The notes beneath the pieces were generated by a model. That model saw only the letters and a program-made list of their open reading frames with translations. It had not been told where the DNA came from and searched no databases. A stretch of DNA of 64,000 nt from Phyllobacterium sophorae. GTDB taxonomy: Bacteria > Pseudomonadota > Alphaproteobacteria > Rhizobiales > Rhizobiaceae. Below, in pieces: positions 2,613-10,812 of this stretch. The position numbers and the translations under genes were made by a program. The stretch spans positions 124,001 to 188,000 of the forward strand of contig NZ_PGGM01000009.1 in NCBI RefSeq assembly GCF_003010965.1, in the 5' to 3' direction. The stretch's first letter is position 1; each line of letters starts with the position of its first letter.

Positions 2613-2749
2613 TCCTTGTCCCCTCCCTGCCGCAATCGGCTGTGGACATGAACTTGCAATCTGTAGAAACTCAAGCCTAACATTGCACGAAGAAGAAAAA
2701 CAGGCAATCGGGCTGGAAGACGCATAGGATCACCTGTTATCCTCTGCAA

Positions 2750-3697
2750 TCATCCGTTTGCAGCGCGTAAGACATCCTCTGACTGGACTTCATGCAAGGC
2801 AGTATTTGTTGCTGCTTTCAGGACATCGACAAACGCCCGCAGATTGGCAGGGACCTGCCGGCGGCTGGGATGAAACAGATAGAAGCCGGGAAAAGGAGGT
2901 GACCATTCCTGGAGCAGCGGGACAAGCCGCCCGCTCGCAATATCATCCTGCATCCATTCTTCCATCCACAGTGTGATCCCCATGCCGTCGCGCGCGGCAC
3001 GAAGAGCCACGCCGCAGTCATTGACAGTGAGTGAACCTTTAACCGCAACTTCGAACCATTTTCCGTCTTTCGCGAATTCCCAGTTGTAAAGCGTCTCACG
3101 GCCTGGTTGCTTCCAGGTGATGCAAGAATGATGCTGCAAATCGCCGGGTGTCTGCGGCGCGCCATTTCTGCGAAGATAATCTGGAGTCGCGACGGCAACT
3201 TGGCGCAAATCGGGGCCGATCCGGATCGCGATCATATCTTTCTCGATATACTCGCCAAGCCTAATACCGGCATCAAACCCACGCGCAAATATGTCATCAA
3301 TAGCTTCGTCGCTTATGAGCTCAAGGTTGATATCCGGGTGGAGTTCCTGGAAACGAGGCAGGATCGGTTGAATGAGGTAGTTGATGGCCATATGCTGTGC
3401 ACAGATGCGGAGGGTGCCGAACGGCTTGTCACGCAGGTTACCGATCTCCTCGAGTGCAGCATCAAATTCGTCGAACAACGGCAGGATTCTGTCGAGCAAA
3501 TGACTGCCGGCTTCAGTCAGTGTCACGCTGCGGGTGGTCCTGTTGAACAGCCGGACCCCGAGCCGCTTCTCGAGATCGCGAATGATCTGACTCAATGCCG
3601 ATGGCGAGACACCTATATCCCTTGCCGTACCGGAAAAGCTTCGGTGTTTGGCAATCGCCGCAAATGCCTTGAGACTGGAAAACTCGCTGCCGCGCAT
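2750..3697 (-). CDS. LysR-family transcriptional regulator
   Basis: A 315-residue LysR-type regulator: winged HTH at about residues 3-62 (SGTARDIGVSPSALSQIIRD is the recognition region) and a periplasmic-binding-like effector domain from about 90 to 300. I chose ATG 3697 rather than the in-frame GTG at 3721 because AAGAAGG lies about 6 bases before the ATG and the protein then begins MRGSEFSSLKAF, as family members do. Its target is unknown. It is divergent from the dual-protease gene across 336 bp and lies upstream of the cox pair on the same strand, so either could be its target. The AT-rich upstream region has two TATAAT-like hexamers around 3730-3755. Confidence 0.88.
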   Translation of the reverse strand: MRGSEFSSLKAFAAIAKHRSFSGTARDIGVSPSALSQIIRDLEKRLGVRLFNRTTRSVTLTEAGSHLLDRILPLFDEFDAALEEIGNLRDKPFGTLRICAQHMAINYLIQPILPRFQELHPDINLELISDEAIDDIFARGFDAGIRLGEYIEKDMIAIRIGPDLRQVAVATPDYLRRNGAPQTPGDLQHHSCITWKQPGRETLYNWEFAKDGKWFEVAVKGSLTVNDCGVALRAARDGMGITLWMEEWMQDDIASGRLVPLLQEWSPPFPGFYLFHPSRRQVPANLRAFVDVLKAATNTALHEVQSEDVLRAANG

Positions 3698-4033
3698 TCT
3701 GCACCTTCTTCTTAAAGACACTTCTGAATTATAATCAATTAATTAAACTATAATCCAACTCAATACTGATAGGAAGAGAACAACGCGGCGCGGCGCGAGC
3801 TGGTGAAAAATTTACGTGGGACTATGCTTATCTTTAACGCTAAAAGTCTGTTTCATTTGCCTGGATGTAAACTCTGTGATTAATTTGTATTGGAATACTA
3901 TAGTTTGTTTGAAATGCAGTGCCGAAATCCAAAGCCGTAAGAATTCGGATTGTGATTCTGGTGTCTGATTGGCGTGTGAGCGTTACTTGAAGCCGCGCGA
4001 TACAAATATCGCGCCGTTTGTTGGGGGCGGGAC
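3698..4033. other. Divergent intergenic region between LysR gene and protease gene
   Basis: This gene-free stretch holds the promoters for the LysR gene (minus) and the dual-protease gene (plus). The part nearest the LysR gene is AT-rich with repeated TAATTAATTA and TATAAT-like words. The part nearest the protease gene carries a perfect hairpin, listed separately. No credible ORF was found. Confidence 0.6.
3995..4014 (+). promoter_or_regulatory. Perfect inverted repeat in the leader of the dual-protease gene
   Basis: Arms GCGCGATA and TATCGCGC are exact reverse complements around a CAAA loop, ending 19 bases before the ATG at 4034. It could be an operator or an mRNA hairpin that limits translation. 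There is no T-tract after it, so it is not an obvious terminator. Confidence 0.5.
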
Positions 4034-7000
4034 ATGGCTGAAGCAACAAGCGCACGGCGTGTGCTGGTCAAGACTACGGCAGTGATTGCTGGCCAACGCT
4101 TGGCTCCCGGTACCGCAAAAACGGCTTTCACGGCCGAACCACTTTTTAAAAGCATAGGCCATGAGGCTGCTTTGGGTCTCTCGGCCGGTGCGACATGGCA
4201 CGTCCTTTCAGCACCGGACGATGATGGTACGAATCCTTGGGATATCTGCCATTCCCTGCTTTCCAGCGGACTGGGCGTGACGGGCGGTTCAGTAGAATTC
4301 GCTGAGCCGGATCTGCAGCAGCGCTGGTTGATGGGGGATGAGAAAGCCCTGGGCATCGGATTGACGGCGGGATGCGATCGGGCCAGTCCGCAAAGCTCGA
4401 ACTATCCACGCGACGCAGATAATTTCTGGCTGAAGAAGCGCAGCCATTCCCAGTTTGATGATGCACTTGCAGAGGTGGGGCAGCCTGGCGATCGAAACCG
4501 GGTGCGCATCGCCCATTTGGATACCGGATACGATCCGCGGCATCGCAGTCTGCCTGCTCATATGAATTTGCGCCTCCAACGGAATTTTGTCGAGGCAGAC
4601 CGGCCAAACGATGCGACAGACACCACATCGGAAACGGCCTTATCAAATCCCGGTCATGGAACGGGGACGTTGAGCATCCTTGCAGGCAAGGCTTTTGGCT
4701 CGACGTCAACTATCGGATGTGCACCGAACGCAGAGGTGGTGCCTGTGCGCGTGGCCAATAGCGTTGTCCTGTTCTCCAATAGCTCGATCGCCAAGGCAAT
4801 GGATTACATTCACGGCTTATGTGCCAATCCAGCGACCCGCGTTCACGTCATTACGATGAGCATGGGAGGGCTGGCTTCGCGGGCATGGGCGGACGCCGTC
4901 AACGCTCTTTATGAACGCGGCGTGTTCATTGTTGCGGCTGCAGGCAACAACTTTGCAAACTTGCCGACGCGCAACATTGTCTATCCAGCGAGGTTCAATA
5001 GGGTCGTTGCAGCCTGTGGTGTGATGGCAAATCATGCGCCTTACGCCGATTTGCCGGCGGCTATCATGGCCGGCAATTACGGACCCGCCTCAAAGATGAA
5101 GACCGCCATCGCGGCTTGCACACCGAACACACCCTGGGCTCGAAAAGGCTGTCCCGCCATCGTCGACTTTGATGGAAATGGCACCTCATCGGCCACACCG
5201 CAGGTGGCTGCGTCTGCAGCGCTCTGGATTCAGAACAATATGACCAGACTTGCCGCGTATCGTGAGGACTGGATGCGCGCGGAAGCGGTCCGTCAGGCCT
5301 TGTTCCTATCGGCCCGGACAGGCGGAGATTTGCGCCGTCTCGGACGCGGTGAACTCCAGGCGCTCGCCGCCTTGGACATTTTGCCAGCGAGAGCATCGGA
5401 TCTCGTGAAGGCGCCTGTCGATAGTGCCAGTTTCTCCATTTTGAATGTGCTGACCGGAGTGGATTTTGGGGCAACATCCGAGCCGGGCCGTCAAATGCTC
5501 GAGCTTGAGGCGCTTCAGCTGTCCCAATCAGCGGGTGTCGAGGCGGTGCTTCCTGATCCCTCCATCGATCCGCAATCGCTTAGCACAAAGGACAAGCTGA
5601 ATATTGCAGAAGCACTGCTGGCGCAGCCGGGCATCTCGCAAACATTGCGCGAGACACTGGCAGGCGCGATGCGTACCTCGGCACCCGTGACGTCGCTTCC
5701 GGTCGCCGAAGATGCAGTAACCCGGTTTCACCTTAAAGCTGCCATGGATCCGGACGTGCCGGCCCCGATGCGCCGCCGCCTGCGAGTCTTTGCCTTCGAT
5801 CCGTCGCTTGCAACGGACCCGGACACCGTCGCAATAAATCAGGCGACTTTGGACGTTAAGTGGGAGCCGGGCCTGAATCCTGGACCTGTGGGCGAGTATA
5901 TCGAAGTTATCGATATAGACCCGGCCAGTCGCTGCGCCTACGCCCCCGTGGATCTGAACCACAAGCATCTCTTGCCGCAGGACGGGCTGGCTCCATCGGA
6001 AGGAAACCCGCAGTTTCATCAGCAGATGACCTACGCAGTCGCGATGAGGACGATCGAATATTTTGAACGCGCGCTTGGACGATCAGCCCTTTGGTCGCCG
6101 CGTTTAACAATAATGGCTGGCAGATTGCATCAGCAATATGTCCAGCGTCTGCGGATCTATCCGCATGCGACCCGCGCTCGGAATGCGTACTACAGCCCGG
6201 ATCGAAAGGCCCTCCTTCTCGGCTATTTTACCGCCGCAGAGAAAACGGCGGGCCTGGGACTTCCTCACGGGGTTGTTTTCACAGCTCTGTCCCATGACGT
6301 TATTGCCCACGAGACGACGCACGCCCTGTTGGATGGTCTACATACCCGTTTTCGCGAACCAACCAATCCGGATGTGTTGGCTTTTCACGAAGCATTCGCG
6401 GATATTGTAGCTCTATTCCAGCACTTCACCTTGCCGGAGGCACTGCGTCATCAGATCAGCCGTACCCGAGGTGACCTCAGCCAAGAGAATCTGCTTGCCG
6501 AACTTGCCATTGAATTTGGCCAGGCTGTGAGTGGTGGCTACGGGGCGCTCCGGGACGCCATAGGAACACGTGACAAGGACGATAACTGGGTAGCCAGGAA
6601 ACCCCAGCCCACGGATTATGATGCCAGCAAGGAACCGCACGCCCTTGGGGCGGTGTTGGTGTCTGCGGTCTTCGCTGCTTTCCTCTCGATCTACAAGGCA
6701 AGGATGACGGATCTGGTAAGGTTGGCAACACAGGGTGCCGGCGTTTTGCCGCCAGGCGATATCCCAATCGATCTTGCCAACCGCATGGCGGACGAAGCGA
6801 GTAAGGTGGCGGGGCAGGTTCTGAAAATGTGCATACGGGCACTGGATTATTGTCCGCCTGTGGACATCACCTTCGGGGATTACCTGCGGGCACTCATAAC
6901 GGCCGATCGCGACCTCGTGCCAGATGATCCCCGGGGTTATCGCGTTGCCTTTGTGGCGGCCTTCCGGGACCGGGGCATCTATCCGTCCGGCGTCCGGCAC

Positions 7001-7594
7001 CTGTCTCCAGGCAATCTTGTCTGGGAGTCGCCACCGCTTCCTCTGAGAAATCTTTCAGAGATCGTTACGCGAATGAAGCTGACTTGGAATCTGGACAGCG
7101 ATCGGCGATCCGCCTACGAGGTGTCACAGAAGAATGCTGCAACTTTTCACGCTTGGCTTATTTCTTCCAAGCAGGTTTCAGATGATGAACTTGCAGTGCT
7201 CGGACTAGTGCGGCGAAGCCAGCCCATGACGATCGGAAATATCAAAGGCACCATACGGGGCATAGAGGTTCATTCCGTGCGCCCTGCACGGCGCATTGGC
7301 CCCGATGGCCAGAGCCGAACGGATCTCGTTGTAGAGATCACCCAGACTTTCAAGCCGGATGCAGACCAAGGCGGACTCTATCGTGGTGGTTGCACGCTTA
7401 TCATAGATCTTGAGACGAATACTGTCCGCTATTGCATCAGGAAGCGCGTTACGAGTGCCCAGCGATTGAGCCAGCAAGCGGCATTTCGCTTGCAACAAGA
7501 CTTCGGCCTGAGGCTGCAATACTTCAGTGAGTCTCCAGCGGGCAATGAACCTTTTGCATTGCTGCACGGTGCATTGGGAGGCAAGGGTGGCTAA
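4034..7594 (+). CDS. Cytosolic dual protease: S8 subtilisin-like plus gluzincin (HExxH) metallopeptidase domains
   Basis: A single 1186-residue polypeptide with two protease signatures. The subtilisin triad is Asp163 (HLDTGYDP), His208 (NPGHGTGT) and Ser385 (GNGTSSATPQ), with the oxyanion-type Asn in AAAGNN. From about residue 600 a thermolysin-like region carries HETTH (His759, Glu760, His763) and, 23 residues on, HEAFAD, whose Glu786 fits the third zinc ligand. No signal peptide or membrane segment is seen, so it is probably cytosolic. The C-terminal 200 residues are not recognised. The next gene, an MBL-fold hydrolase, overlaps it by 8 bases, which implies translational coupling. Protease-MBL pairs are known from some bacterial conflict systems; a role here is inference only. 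Confidence 0.85.
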   Translation: MAEATSARRVLVKTTAVIAGQRLAPGTAKTAFTAEPLFKSIGHEAALGLSAGATWHVLSAPDDDGTNPWDICHSLLSSGLGVTGGSVEFAEPDLQQRWLMGDEKALGIGLTAGCDRASPQSSNYPRDADNFWLKKRSHSQFDDALAEVGQPGDRNRVRIAHLDTGYDPRHRSLPAHMNLRLQRNFVEADRPNDATDTTSETALSNPGHGTGTLSILAGKAFGSTSTIGCAPNAEVVPVRVANSVVLFSNSSIAKAMDYIHGLCANPATRVHVITMSMGGLASRAWADAVNALYERGVFIVAAAGNNFANLPTRNIVYPARFNRVVAACGVMANHAPYADLPAAIMAGNYGPASKMKTAIAACTPNTPWARKGCPAIVDFDGNGTSSATPQVAASAALWIQNNMTRLAAYREDWMRAEAVRQALFLSARTGGDLRRLGRGELQALAALDILPARASDLVKAPVDSASFSILNVLTGVDFGATSEPGRQMLELEALQLSQSAGVEAVLPDPSIDPQSLSTKDKLNIAEALLAQPGISQTLRETLAGAMRTSAPVTSLPVAEDAVTRFHLKAAMDPDVPAPMRRRLRVFAFDPSLATDPDTVAINQATLDVKWEPGLNPGPVGEYIEVIDIDPASRCAYAPVDLNHKHLLPQDGLAPSEGNPQFHQQMTYAVAMRTIEYFERALGRSALWSPRLTIMAGRLHQQYVQRLRIYPHATRARNAYYSPDRKALLLGYFTAAEKTAGLGLPHGVVFTALSHDVIAHETTHALLDGLHTRFREPTNPDVLAFHEAFADIVALFQHFTLPEALRHQISRTRGDLSQENLLAELAIEFGQAVSGGYGALRDAIGTRDKDDNWVARKPQPTDYDASKEPHALGAVLVSAVFAAFLSIYKARMTDLVRLATQGAGVLPPGDIPIDLANRMADEASKVAGQVLKMCIRALDYCPPVDITFGDYLRALITADRDLVPDDPRGYRVAFVAAFRDRGIYPSGVRHLSPGNLVWESPPLPLRNLSEIVTRMKLTWNLDSDRRSAYEVSQKNAATFHAWLISSKQVSDDELAVLGLVRRSQPMTIGNIKGTIRGIEVHSVRPARRIGPDGQSRTDLVVEITQTFKPDADQGGLYRGGCTLIIDLETNTVRYCIRKRVTSAQRLSQQAAFRLQQDFGLRLQYFSESPAGNEPFALLHGALGGKGG

Positions 7595-8927
7595 GAGGAA
7601 GAGAATTGCCAAATCCCAAGCGTCCGGCGCGGGTAAGGATCATCGAGCTACGGTCCGCATGTACAGGCAGGGCATGGGTGACTGTTTCCTGATCACAATC
7701 CCGCGCAAGAATAAAAAGCCATTCCGAATCCTTATCGATTGCGGTGTCATTCTCGGCACCAGCGATGCGGCCGGGAAAATGATCCAGGTCGCCAAGGATG
7801 TCGCCGAGGAAGCCGAAGGGCACATTGATATTCTCCTGGCAACGCACCAGCATTGGGATCACCTCTCCGGGTTTGTCCAAGCTTTTGAAATGTTCGCGAC
7901 GTTGACGGTAGATGAGGTCTGGGTTGCATGGACCGAGGATCCGGATGACGTTCTCGCCGGCGAACTGCGGCGGGAACGTGTCCAGGCAATTGCGGCTCTC
8001 AAATTGAGTGCCGCAGCAATGACGATGGCTGGCGATGAGGCTGGTGCGGGTGAGATTGGCGATCTGCTCGGATTTTTCGGTGCGGCAGGGGGTGCATCCA
8101 CTCAAGATGCATTGAATGCAGTCATGAAAATGGGAAAAGTGCGCTACTGCCGTGCGACGGACGATCCCGTCCATCTTTCAGATACTGACATCAGGCTTTA
8201 TATCCTGGGGCCACCCCATGATCCCAAGCAGATACGGAAAACTCTCCCATCGGCGCGCGATCCAGAGACATATGGTGTTGCCGCGCATCAACTTGGCGCA
8301 AGCGTGTCGGCGGCGCTCAACCCTGATGACAACAGCACACCGTTCAGTGATATCCGATCAATCCCTCTTTCAATCACAAAGGGAATGGATTTCTTTCGAA
8401 AGTGGTATTGGGGACCGGGTGACAGCGCGCTCGACTGGCGCAAGATCGACACGGCATGGCTTGATGGGGCTTCGGAGCTTGCCCTGGCTCTTGACAGTGC
8501 AACGAACAACACAAGTCTTGTGCTTGCGATCGAACTTTCGGACGGCGATGTCCTGTTGTTCGTAGCGGACGCGCAAGTTGGGAACTGGCTGTCATGGCGG
8601 GAACTCAGTTGGGAGGTGCAAGGCAGGAAAGTCACCGGGCCGGATCTGCTCGCGCGAACCGTTTTCTACAAGGTCGGACACCATGGAAGCCATAATGCGA
8701 CGCTGCGCGCGGATGGCCTTGAGCTAATGAAGAATTTGTCGATCGCAGCCATTCCGGTCGACCATGCTATGGCTATTAAGAAGCGATGGGGCAAGATACC
8801 GCTTCCGGAATTGGTGGCAGCACTTGAACGTGCGGCCAAGGGCGGTGTTATCCGTATCGACGAAACCCCCGATCCGCCACTTCGAAATGTTACGGCGACG
8901 GATTTGTACTTCGACATTTCGTTTTGA
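7587..8927 (+). CDS. ComEC-like metallo-beta-lactamase-fold hydrolase
   Basis: An MBL-fold protein of 446 residues. The metal-binding motif THQHWDH gives His87, His89, Asp91 and His92, and the ComEC/Rec2-type motif GHHGSHN lies at about 364-370. I chose GTG 7587 over the longer ATG 7527 because GGGAGG precedes it and the extension is a shadow of the protease gene. The overlap with that gene is 8 bases. A large insert between the motifs (about 110-330) is not recognised. There is no signal peptide. Such ComEC-like domains are often nucleases or phosphodiesterases, but the substrate cannot be read from the sequence. It converges on the cyclase gene with a 19-bp gap. Confidence 0.85.
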   Translation: MAKRKRIAKSQASGAGKDHRATVRMYRQGMGDCFLITIPRKNKKPFRILIDCGVILGTSDAAGKMIQVAKDVAEEAEGHIDILLATHQHWDHLSGFVQAFEMFATLTVDEVWVAWTEDPDDVLAGELRRERVQAIAALKLSAAAMTMAGDEAGAGEIGDLLGFFGAAGGASTQDALNAVMKMGKVRYCRATDDPVHLSDTDIRLYILGPPHDPKQIRKTLPSARDPETYGVAAHQLGASVSAALNPDDNSTPFSDIRSIPLSITKGMDFFRKWYWGPGDSALDWRKIDTAWLDGASELALALDSATNNTSLVLAIELSDGDVLLFVADAQVGNWLSWRELSWEVQGRKVTGPDLLARTVFYKVGHHGSHNATLRADGLELMKNLSIAAIPVDHAMAIKKRWGKIPLPELVAALERAAKGGVIRIDETPDPPLRNVTATDLYFDISF

Positions 8928-8946
8928 TTGCCCGCCGGAACCTGTA

Positions 8947-10812
8947 TCATTGGCGTGAAACGCCTTGCCACAGCCAGATCGCAAGTGAACCAGCGCGCCC
9001 GCGGATGTTCGTTTCCAAGGGGCCGCTGAGCGTACCCGATTGGAATGGCGAGGAGCGGTGTCCGACCGCTTGAAGCATTTCTTCACTCAAAGCGAGTTCG
9101 GCCCCGTGACCCGCGGCGACTTCCATCAAGCGGCTCGCGACGTTCACTGTGTCACCAGTGGCTGTAATCTGCTGGCGGCTGCCGCCACCCAGCCTTGACG
9201 CTACGACAGTTCCAAAATGCGCGCCTACCTTGAAGCCGATTCGCGGCGAGATCGATGTGGGCAGCGACGCAAGCCAATCCCTGGTACTGTGGCAAAGACC
9301 CACGCAACAGCGCGCAGCATTGAAGGCGTCGTCGATGCCCGGCTCCGGTAGGCCGAAGAGGATCATTGCGCCATCGCCCATGAAGCTGGTGATGATCCCT
9401 CCGCACGCCGCAACCTCTTCGTCCACGACTTTATAGAAGCCGTTCAATAGCTCGCGTGTCGGGTTCGGCCCCAATGTCTCGCTCAACCCGGTAAATCCGG
9501 AGAGATCAATAAATACAACGGCTGCATCCTGTCGGACGGGTTGTGCCAGAAATCCGGGGTTTCGAGCGAGCCATTTGCCAAGGCCGGGCGCTTGAATCTG
9601 CTGCAAGAGCGCGCTTTGTCTGGCAAAATGCTGCGCTCGGCGTTTTCCAAGCCACAGCTGAACGGCTCCGAAGATGACCGCTGGCGGGATCGCGGCGGTC
9701 ATTGGCACTGCTGCACTGAGCCAGATGCCGTTTACAAAGGCGGCCATGTTGATGGCAAGCCAGGCCAGAATGGTACATGCGATCATCACCAGACCGATGA
9801 CGTTGCGTCGCCAGGCCAACAGTGCGACGAGGACCAGCGGCAGCCCCACAGCCACGCCGGCGTCCACAAGACGAACGCTCCGGTCGCGGACAATCCCGTC
9901 GCCATTCATTAAATGCGATATCGCGGTGGAAATGACCTCGACGCCGGGGAGTACCGGATCAAAGGGCGTTGGAAACACATCGCCCCCGGCAGTTACCGTT
10001 GTTCCCAGGACAACAATTTGACCCTCGATACTATCGCGGCTCAGTTTCCCGTTCAGGACATCCGCGGCGCTGAACGTCCGAATCGTGCTTCTGGTACCGT
10101 AGAAGATCAAAGGCAAGGCCTGACCGGTGTCGGTCCGGATTGTCTGTTCCCCAAGCAAGATGCGGCCCGGCTCGATGGTGGGCTCGACTCCCTTCGCCAA
10201 AGAGACAACCCGCAGCGGAAACGACGCTTCTATGTGGTCTCCGCTTTTGAACAGCATCGGAACGAGTCGAGGGGTGCCGTTGCGATCGGTCGAAACATTT
10301 ACCACGCCAACCGCCGCTGCATCGACGAACGGTTTCGTTGGAAGCAGGAATCGTTGGGCACTTGGGATGCTGCTGAGAGGATCGTCCGGGTTTGTTTCAA
10401 TCCGCTGTTGGCCCTCGGGAAAGACGGCGGCAGCTGCGAGCACACTGGTGCTTCGGCCGAGTGATAATGCCAACGCGTGGTCGCCGTCCTCCGGTCCTGG
10501 ATCCACGAGTAGCAAATCGATCCCGATAACCTTCGGATTGAGTTCTGTGATCTTGTCGATCAGCCGGGCGAGTGTGGCCCGCGCGAGCGGATAGCTGCCC
10601 TCTTGGCGCACCACCTCGTCGTCTATTGCTACAATGGTCACGGTTCCGGGTGCCGGCTTCTGCCCGCGAATTGCGGTACGAAGATCGGTCATTGTGGCTT
10701 CGACCCGGTCGACCAACCACACGTCGCCTTGCATATGCGCAAGGCCGAGACCAGCCCCCCAAAGGCCTGCGAGTATCAATGCGATCAGCGTCTGGAACGC
10801 CCGTCGGCTCAT
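8947..10812 (-). CDS. CHASE2-domain adenylate/guanylate cyclase
   Basis: A membrane class III nucleotide cyclase of 621 residues. A first transmembrane helix near residues 5-27 is followed by an extracytoplasmic CHASE2 sensor domain (about 30-315, including AIDDEVVRQEGSYPLARAT), then three hydrophobic helices (about 320-395) and the cyclase domain (about 425-590). The metal-binding segments VVFIDLSGFT and FMGDGAMILFG are both intact. I chose ATG 10812 (MSRRAFQTLI); the ORF can be extended upstream but would then overlap the FecR gene. It lies 5 bases after the FecR-domain gene, so the two form a unit. It probably makes cAMP in response to an extracellular or envelope cue, which is inference. 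Confidence 0.9.
   Translation of the reverse strand: MSRRAFQTLIALILAGLWGAGLGLAHMQGDVWLVDRVEATMTDLRTAIRGQKPAPGTVTIVAIDDEVVRQEGSYPLARATLARLIDKITELNPKVIGIDLLLVDPGPEDGDHALALSLGRSTSVLAAAAVFPEGQQRIETNPDDPLSSIPSAQRFLLPTKPFVDAAAVGVVNVSTDRNGTPRLVPMLFKSGDHIEASFPLRVVSLAKGVEPTIEPGRILLGEQTIRTDTGQALPLIFYGTRSTIRTFSAADVLNGKLSRDSIEGQIVVLGTTVTAGGDVFPTPFDPVLPGVEVISTAISHLMNGDGIVRDRSVRLVDAGVAVGLPLVLVALLAWRRNVIGLVMIACTILAWLAINMAAFVNGIWLSAAVPMTAAIPPAVIFGAVQLWLGKRRAQHFARQSALLQQIQAPGLGKWLARNPGFLAQPVRQDAAVVFIDLSGFTGLSETLGPNPTRELLNGFYKVVDEEVAACGGIITSFMGDGAMILFGLPEPGIDDAFNAARCCVGLCHSTRDWLASLPTSISPRIGFKVGAHFGTVVASRLGGGSRQQITATGDTVNVASRLMEVAAGHGAELALSEEMLQAVGHRSSPFQSGTLSGPLETNIRGRAGSLAIWLWQGVSRQ

Follow-up and report, generated by a model that had tools for sequence, protein, structure and literature searches.

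A thermolysin-like protease and a ComEC-like metallo-β-lactamase-fold hydrolase form a conserved gene pair, a candidate for a protease-triggered defence module

Two adjoining genes, A and B, in a 64,000 nucleotide (nt) stretch of Phyllobacterium sophorae DNA (contig NZ_PGGM01000009.1, positions 124,001–188,000; hereafter the window, numbered from its first letter) raise the question of whether a protein with two protease sites and a metallo-β-lactamase (MBL)-fold hydrolase belong to one system and, if so, what this system does. An original prediction, made from the DNA letters alone, took them for a joint and undescribed protease–MBL system, possibly for defence or regulated proteolysis. Our comparison of relatives shows that the conserved unit is the pair formed by the zinc protease, a gluzincin, and the MBL, which is real, widespread and, as far as our searches reach, undescribed. 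The joint system therefore holds at the level of this near-obligate pair, but the fusion of the gluzincin to an S8 subtilisin, as seen in the window, is not itself the conserved unit.

A search of plasmids matched 142 records (148 places), in three groups of S8-only, gluzincin-only and full-length matches; 22 were fetched and 20 of these contained a gluzincin, with L039 and L051 (loci are designated by L numbers) having S8 only. Genome representatives yielded at least 514 relatives at a tblastn E ≤ 1e-3, of which the best 80 were examined, so that S8 fusions, which resemble the query closely, are over-represented. The main set thus comprised 100 gluzincin loci (20 from plasmids and 80 from genomes), selected for similarity to gene A or to a gluzincin profile and not for the presence of an MBL. 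All 100 have an MBL gene as the next gene downstream in the same orientation, in 96 of them the two genes overlap or are no more than 20 nt apart, and the catalytic motifs are retained in each of the 97 loci scored. The MBL gene also follows in eight of eight extra loci (five from a phylum sample, two from a class sample and one unverified phage-labelled scaffold). In a reverse search, an MBL profile at E ≤ 1e-20 matched three of 289 genomes of the class, own genome included, and these are the same three with a strong gluzincin (the searches of the 289 genomes scored the best two and best five candidates per genome). The co-occurrence of homologues proposed as a check is borne out for the gluzincin and the MBL.

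The gluzincin tree was built by a fast procedure under LG+G4, with flags on long branches, and contains the window and 96 of the 100 loci, 97 rows in all; L032, L056, L066 and L081 were dropped as short or split. Distances in the gluzincin and MBL trees, compared over 93 rows after leaving out four long-branch or distant ones, correlate with r 0.68 against a permutation maximum of 0.153, and 47 of 90 splits agree, an agreement that is partly due to shared descent. Split frames, none of them mended, occur in the MBL of L032, L081 and L136 and in the gluzincin of L114, L119 and L140, perhaps from decay or sequencing errors.

Every residue that the original prediction had named for the subtilisin triad and for the separate zinc site of the gene A product was correct (Table 1). 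The S8 domain shows the Asp/His/Ser triad and the oxyanion Asn in a subtilisin fold, as expected of an S8 member. Pro-subtilisin structures 2e1p, 3vhq, 3whi and 3t41 align to the gene A model from residue 5–7 to residue 448–452, with aligned spans of 340–350 residues for pro-Tk-subtilisin and others (a similarity of fold only), and mature subtilisins align only from residue 127–129. Since a subtilisin-type propeptide occupies residues 1 to about 125, the S8 part looks, in the model, like a zymogen. All 50 matches listed for the whole model fall on this S8 part, so this comparison did not probe the gluzincin fold. The gluzincin HExxH and E+D motif aligns with that of thermolysin (M4), and all 97 gluzincins scored have HExxH plus the downstream Glu ligand; a later invariant His is, from the anatomy of thermolysin, presumably the acid/base His. 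Unlike thermolysin, the window domain comprises about 600 amino acids (aa), has no Pfam match at E ≤ 0.1, and so does not reach the M4 gathering score, and belongs to a protein in which no signal peptide was found, in agreement with the original prediction. Weak Pfam M4 matches were seen in two of 18 gluzincin members (best 0.002), and a sequence search of the PDB retrieved nothing at E ≤ 0.01 and, with a limit of 10, a neutral protease and thermolysins at 0.063–1.2 (best match E = 0.063). The P. sophorae genome itself has one match.

Table 1. Coordinates, in window numbering, of the two genes, their parts and the surrounding segment.
Feature	Position	Strand	Details
Gene A: propeptide, subtilisin (S8), linker, gluzincin (M4/thermolysin-like)	4034..7594	+	1186 aa
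N-terminal subtilisin-type propeptide, about aa 1-125	4034..4408	+	structure alignments; strand-helix-strand pattern in model
S8 subtilisin domain, aa 129-452	4418..5389	+	triad D163/H208/S385
Gluzincin domain, aa 571-1186	5744..7591	+	H759 E760 xx H763, E786/D790, H869; constant MBL partner
Junction: GGGAGG and overlapping GTG start / TAA stop	7576..7594	+	joins genes A and B
Gene B: ComEC-like MBL-fold hydrolase	7587..8927	+	446 aa from GTG 7587; HQHWDH, D328, HHGS
Second variable region of MBL, aa 211-284, candidate gating loop	8217..8438	+	
Segment that two colinear relatives lack	2710..8961		LysR gene 2750-3721 (minus strand) plus genes A and B

For gene B, GTG 7587 is the most likely start codon, at the same position as in its annotated counterpart from Phyllobacterium sp. 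A18/5-2; an alternative GTG at 7527 gives 466 aa. The two genes overlap by 8 nt, with GTGGCTAA common to the end of gene A and the start of gene B and preceded by GGGAGG. As proposed, the product is ComEC-like: its fold is closest to the ComEC DNase domain, but it is about 180 residues longer and has two variable regions (residues 118–187 and 211–284), one of them partly disordered; the MBL site comprises H87, H89, D328 and H365. Within the second variable region, residues 231–250 have a model block predicted local distance difference test score (pLDDT) of 54–59, and F253 is kept in 73 of 73 sequences.

We favor, with a probability of about 0.52, a reading of the pair as a mobile two-gene effector module triggered by proteolysis, in which a cytoplasmic gluzincin and a ComEC-like MBL pro-nuclease would provide defence by stopping infected cells. 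Its constant core is the thermolysin-like protease and the ComEC-like enzyme, encoded by genes that overlap or adjoin. Extra loops probably hold the MBL inactive until cleaved by the partner protease, and once opened the MBL would degrade DNA and so stop the infected cell. Because the gluzincin is the constant partner, we infer that it is the protease activating the MBL, and the front module would set the timing of its action. In the window member, a subtilisin zymogen fused to the protease would serve as the trigger: sensing would release the subtilisin, this would free the gluzincin and the gluzincin would open the MBL, in a two-step cascade.

A strong precedent, by analogy, comes from PMC12799240 (2025), which describes MBL pro-nucleases gated by loops, opened by a partner trypsin or caspase and moved pairwise between defence systems, with trypsin–MBL and caspase–MBL (canu) pairs in Hachiman, AVAST, Lamassu and DRT; the original prediction had also mentioned protease–MBL pairs in known conflict systems. 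As in those pairs, the window protease gene adjoins and is coupled to a co-inherited gene for a ComEC-like MBL with extra loops, the pair is mobile between settings, the protease is fused to exchangeable modules and the nuclease gene lies 3′ of the protease gene, as in canu. Unlike them, the protease is neither a trypsin nor a caspase but a thermolysin-like gluzincin with a second, zymogen-like S8 protease, and the window copy has no known defence neighbor or sensor among the five genes scanned beside it, its cleavage, gating and defence role being putative. The Results of the same work, referring to fig. S2, state that nucleases of this kind are found together with further families of proteases as well, and the gluzincin–MBL family may already be included there. 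We consider the pair to be of the protease-gated MBL kind, with another protease class, rather than a new kind. A gluzincin–MBL or S8–gluzincin–MBL system was not found in the literature, searched with narrow terms and with few subscription papers or preprints covered, and the passages of PMC8195603 that were consulted do not mention MBL. As far as these searches reach, this particular pair is an undescribed variant of a kind already published.

The front module is exchangeable. Among the 97 tree rows (window included), 35 have an S8 fusion, two a TPR-S domain, two a second gluzincin with its own HExxH and 58 none; L074, L075 and L076, counted in the last group, start at a contig end, where a fused module may be cut off, and L087, also there, has a weak LCAT-like match (22.2 bits; cut-off 21). 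The S8 label changes six times along the tree, versus a shuffled mean of 28.7. Locus L096 is inside the S8 clade yet unfused, with a patatin gene directly upstream instead, and in L112:1354-9629 (Desulfobulbaceae) a stand-alone S8 gene lies between two gluzincin–MBL pairs, which is the unfused form of the window architecture. In Variovorax (L105:6057-14753 and L130:6249-11250), one protein before the MBL carries two tandem gluzincin domains, each with HExxH, and L105 has a second pair directly after. The TPR-S domain (PF20308), which Pfam calls a sensor, is fused ahead of the gluzincin in L092:5469-9392 and L095:7227-9995, so the trigger may differ in some members. In L063, L073 and L115, the long N-terminal fusions look like chance frame extensions and were not counted as modules; the two N-termini scanned, from L073 and L115, had no Pfam match.

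The S8 domain itself resembles mycosin (83.9 of 278.75 bits), QhpE (37.5 of 165) and PatA (34.7 of 421.05) in NCBIfam, which might suggest a system for the maturation of a modified peptide; nevertheless, all these scores are far below the cut-offs and in 62 of the 97 rows the pair occurs with no S8 fusion, making this explanation highly improbable. Lipases are a further recurrent partner: 18 of the 100 loci have a patatin-cluster gene nearby, which in 15 of them lies immediately upstream in the same orientation, six have a Tle1-like lipase nearby, and PLD genes are upstream of L033 and L046. Including the LCAT-like fusion, a lipase-type partner is present in the fetched flanks of 27 of the 100 loci, at varying distances and sometimes on the opposite strand. 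Such neighbors (patatin, Tle1-like, PLD, LCAT-like) would suit an attack on membranes, with the MBL as a protease-activated phosphodiesterase on lipid or teichoic-acid-like head groups, an option that we deem unlikely. The Tle1-like lipases, together with a cell wall hydrolase (L034) and an amidase (L032) near members, would also fit secreted effectors acting as an inter-bacterial toxin; this is rather improbable, given that the window protein lacks a signal peptide and that no VgrG or PAAR was among the neighbor Pfam families listed (25 of 27 and 25 of 40, from the part of the neighbors scanned). These Pfam scans covered 28 of 47 upstream and 34 of 44 downstream open reading frames (ORFs), plus several single ORFs. 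A broader form of the protease-triggered module, which we regard as doubtful, is a plug-in intracellular cascade from subtilisin zymogen to fused thermolysin-like protease to gated MBL nuclease, a counterpart of the zymogen cascades of animal immunity; its portable core would be coupled to an S8 zymogen, TPR-S, a second gluzincin, perhaps an alpha/beta-hydrolase, or separate patatin, PLD or Tle1-like lipases, in numerous bacterial phyla as well as in some archaea.

The defence setting was evaluated from the neighbors. Genes of Hachiman, CBASS, 6A-MBL or similar systems occur near at least 10 of the 100 loci: Hachiman-type genes near L037 and L041, CBASS near L036 and L041, SIR2 near L031 and a caspase near L048, as well as 6A-MBL genes near five loci (L044:1-4104, L086:12416-15937, L096:12891-16348, L126:12478-15947 and L128:12496-15811). 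The latter are above the NCBIfam cut-off in L044 (MBL), L086 and L126, were recognized by Pfam E2-E1-JAB domains in L096 and rest on clustering only in L128. With PADLOC at E ≤ 1e-15, 107 families were matched in 81 neighbor ORFs from 19 plasmid loci (all 20 except L030, which is almost identical to the window), versus 15 in 79 control ORFs taken from the same plasmids about half a record away; these figures count families, not ORFs, and the first 25 of the 107 listed are mostly redundant HamA/HamB models, two members each. Controls also matched mad3, RtcR, RecD, LmuB and others, and the excess among neighbors, which points toward a defence setting, is no more than supportive. Among the neighbors that the original prediction wished to see, STAND was absent from the five genes scanned in the window; other defence genes, as listed, do occur elsewhere. 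Its observation thus stands and its defence reading gains partial support, with the role itself still presumptive. The pair is a good candidate for protease-triggered defence because it recurs across many bacteria, has swappable fronts and is sometimes beside virus-defence genes. In L044, an annotated S8 peptidase gene adjoins the 6A-MBL genes. A family of proteins of about 300 aa lies near six pairs (L034:12031-12930, L032:4558-5415, L045:10822-11727, L057:5245-6213, L062:1592-2326 and L082:3314-4213); the one member scanned, from L034, had no Pfam or NCBIfam match.

The window pair was also compared with other defined systems. System 3 of Burroughs and Aravind (2020; PMC7159879), in which a NucA endonuclease accompanies a trypsin and at times also an S8 peptidase, and for which a proteolytic cascade was proposed, likewise couples more than one peptidase to a nuclease, has peptidoglycan effectors in some members and is mostly alphaproteobacterial; it differs in its HNH/NucA nuclease fold instead of MBL, its trypsin core, its EAD1 adaptors and the lack of a gluzincin. 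The 6A-MBL system (NF058523/NF058524) has a weakly matching MBL, although its partner is an E2-E1-JAB protein and not a protease; the window MBL scored 33.7 versus 220 bits (NF058524). Membership of AVAST type 1 was discarded, with 34.4 versus 420 bits (Avs1a), as was that of Lamassu, with an LmuA stretch limited to residues 42-133 (E = 3.9e-15). No E1/E2 or SMC gene was found among the five window neighbors scanned. IetAS has a subtilisin-type protease (NCBIfam NF042956) in a defence context, and IetS reportedly pairs with an ATPase; the window protein has no NF042956 match at E ≤ 1, and membership of IetAS was rejected, as was that of 6A-MBL.

The gluzincin–MBL pair is rare and scattered (six of 398 genomes of the phylum, own genome counted), members from different phyla are mixed in its tree, two archaeal draft genomes are among its carriers, and it is also present on plasmids. 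Two Phyllobacterium zundukense plasmids without the pair keep the general order cox, cyclase, FecR, CbbR and Calvin genes; in this empty site, homology ends at window 2709/2710 and restarts at 8962 or 9115, and a DUF1428 gene lies between these points. The search for insertion-site marks found only short imperfect repeats and no tRNA. The LysR gene may be outside the core because it has no DNA match in L052, where there is a 294-aa minus-strand ORF of unchecked identity. The location of the window copy, flanked by cytochrome oxidase and Calvin-cycle genes and with the LysR regulator beside it, and the retention of the pair among shared neighbors in four acidobacterial loci would agree with a pair for proteolysis in stress or protein quality, its MBL being a metabolic hydrolase, unconnected to phages. 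Nevertheless, the sporadic spread, the mixing of phyla, the empty site and the defence genes near other loci argue against it, and we assign it a low probability. As for the surroundings, CHASE2-cyclase and FecR-like genes (window:8947-11354) lie beside a LysR (CbbR-like) regulator and the Calvin-cycle operon, and their DNA is kept in three Phyllobacterium plasmid records.

Should the protease-triggered module be confirmed, protease-gated MBL effectors would extend beyond trypsin and caspase to a large family (at least 514 relatives) with another protease class, and surveys of defence systems would gain a new core pair as a search target. Its swappable front modules would be a route toward infection sensors yet to be found. 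The double-protease form adds to the value of the pair, since one polypeptide with two protease catalytic classes, one of them zymogen-like, linked to what is probably the activator of a toxic enzyme, would amount to a compact cascade that can be tested directly.

Among viral contigs, 46 stretches showed the pattern searched for and none was confirmed. An unverified 9.5-kb faecal ‘bacteriophage’ scaffold (MT836994; L162:3515-6674) carries a gluzincin–MBL pair and may be mislabelled bacterial DNA. One further phage record matches a quarter of the gluzincin.
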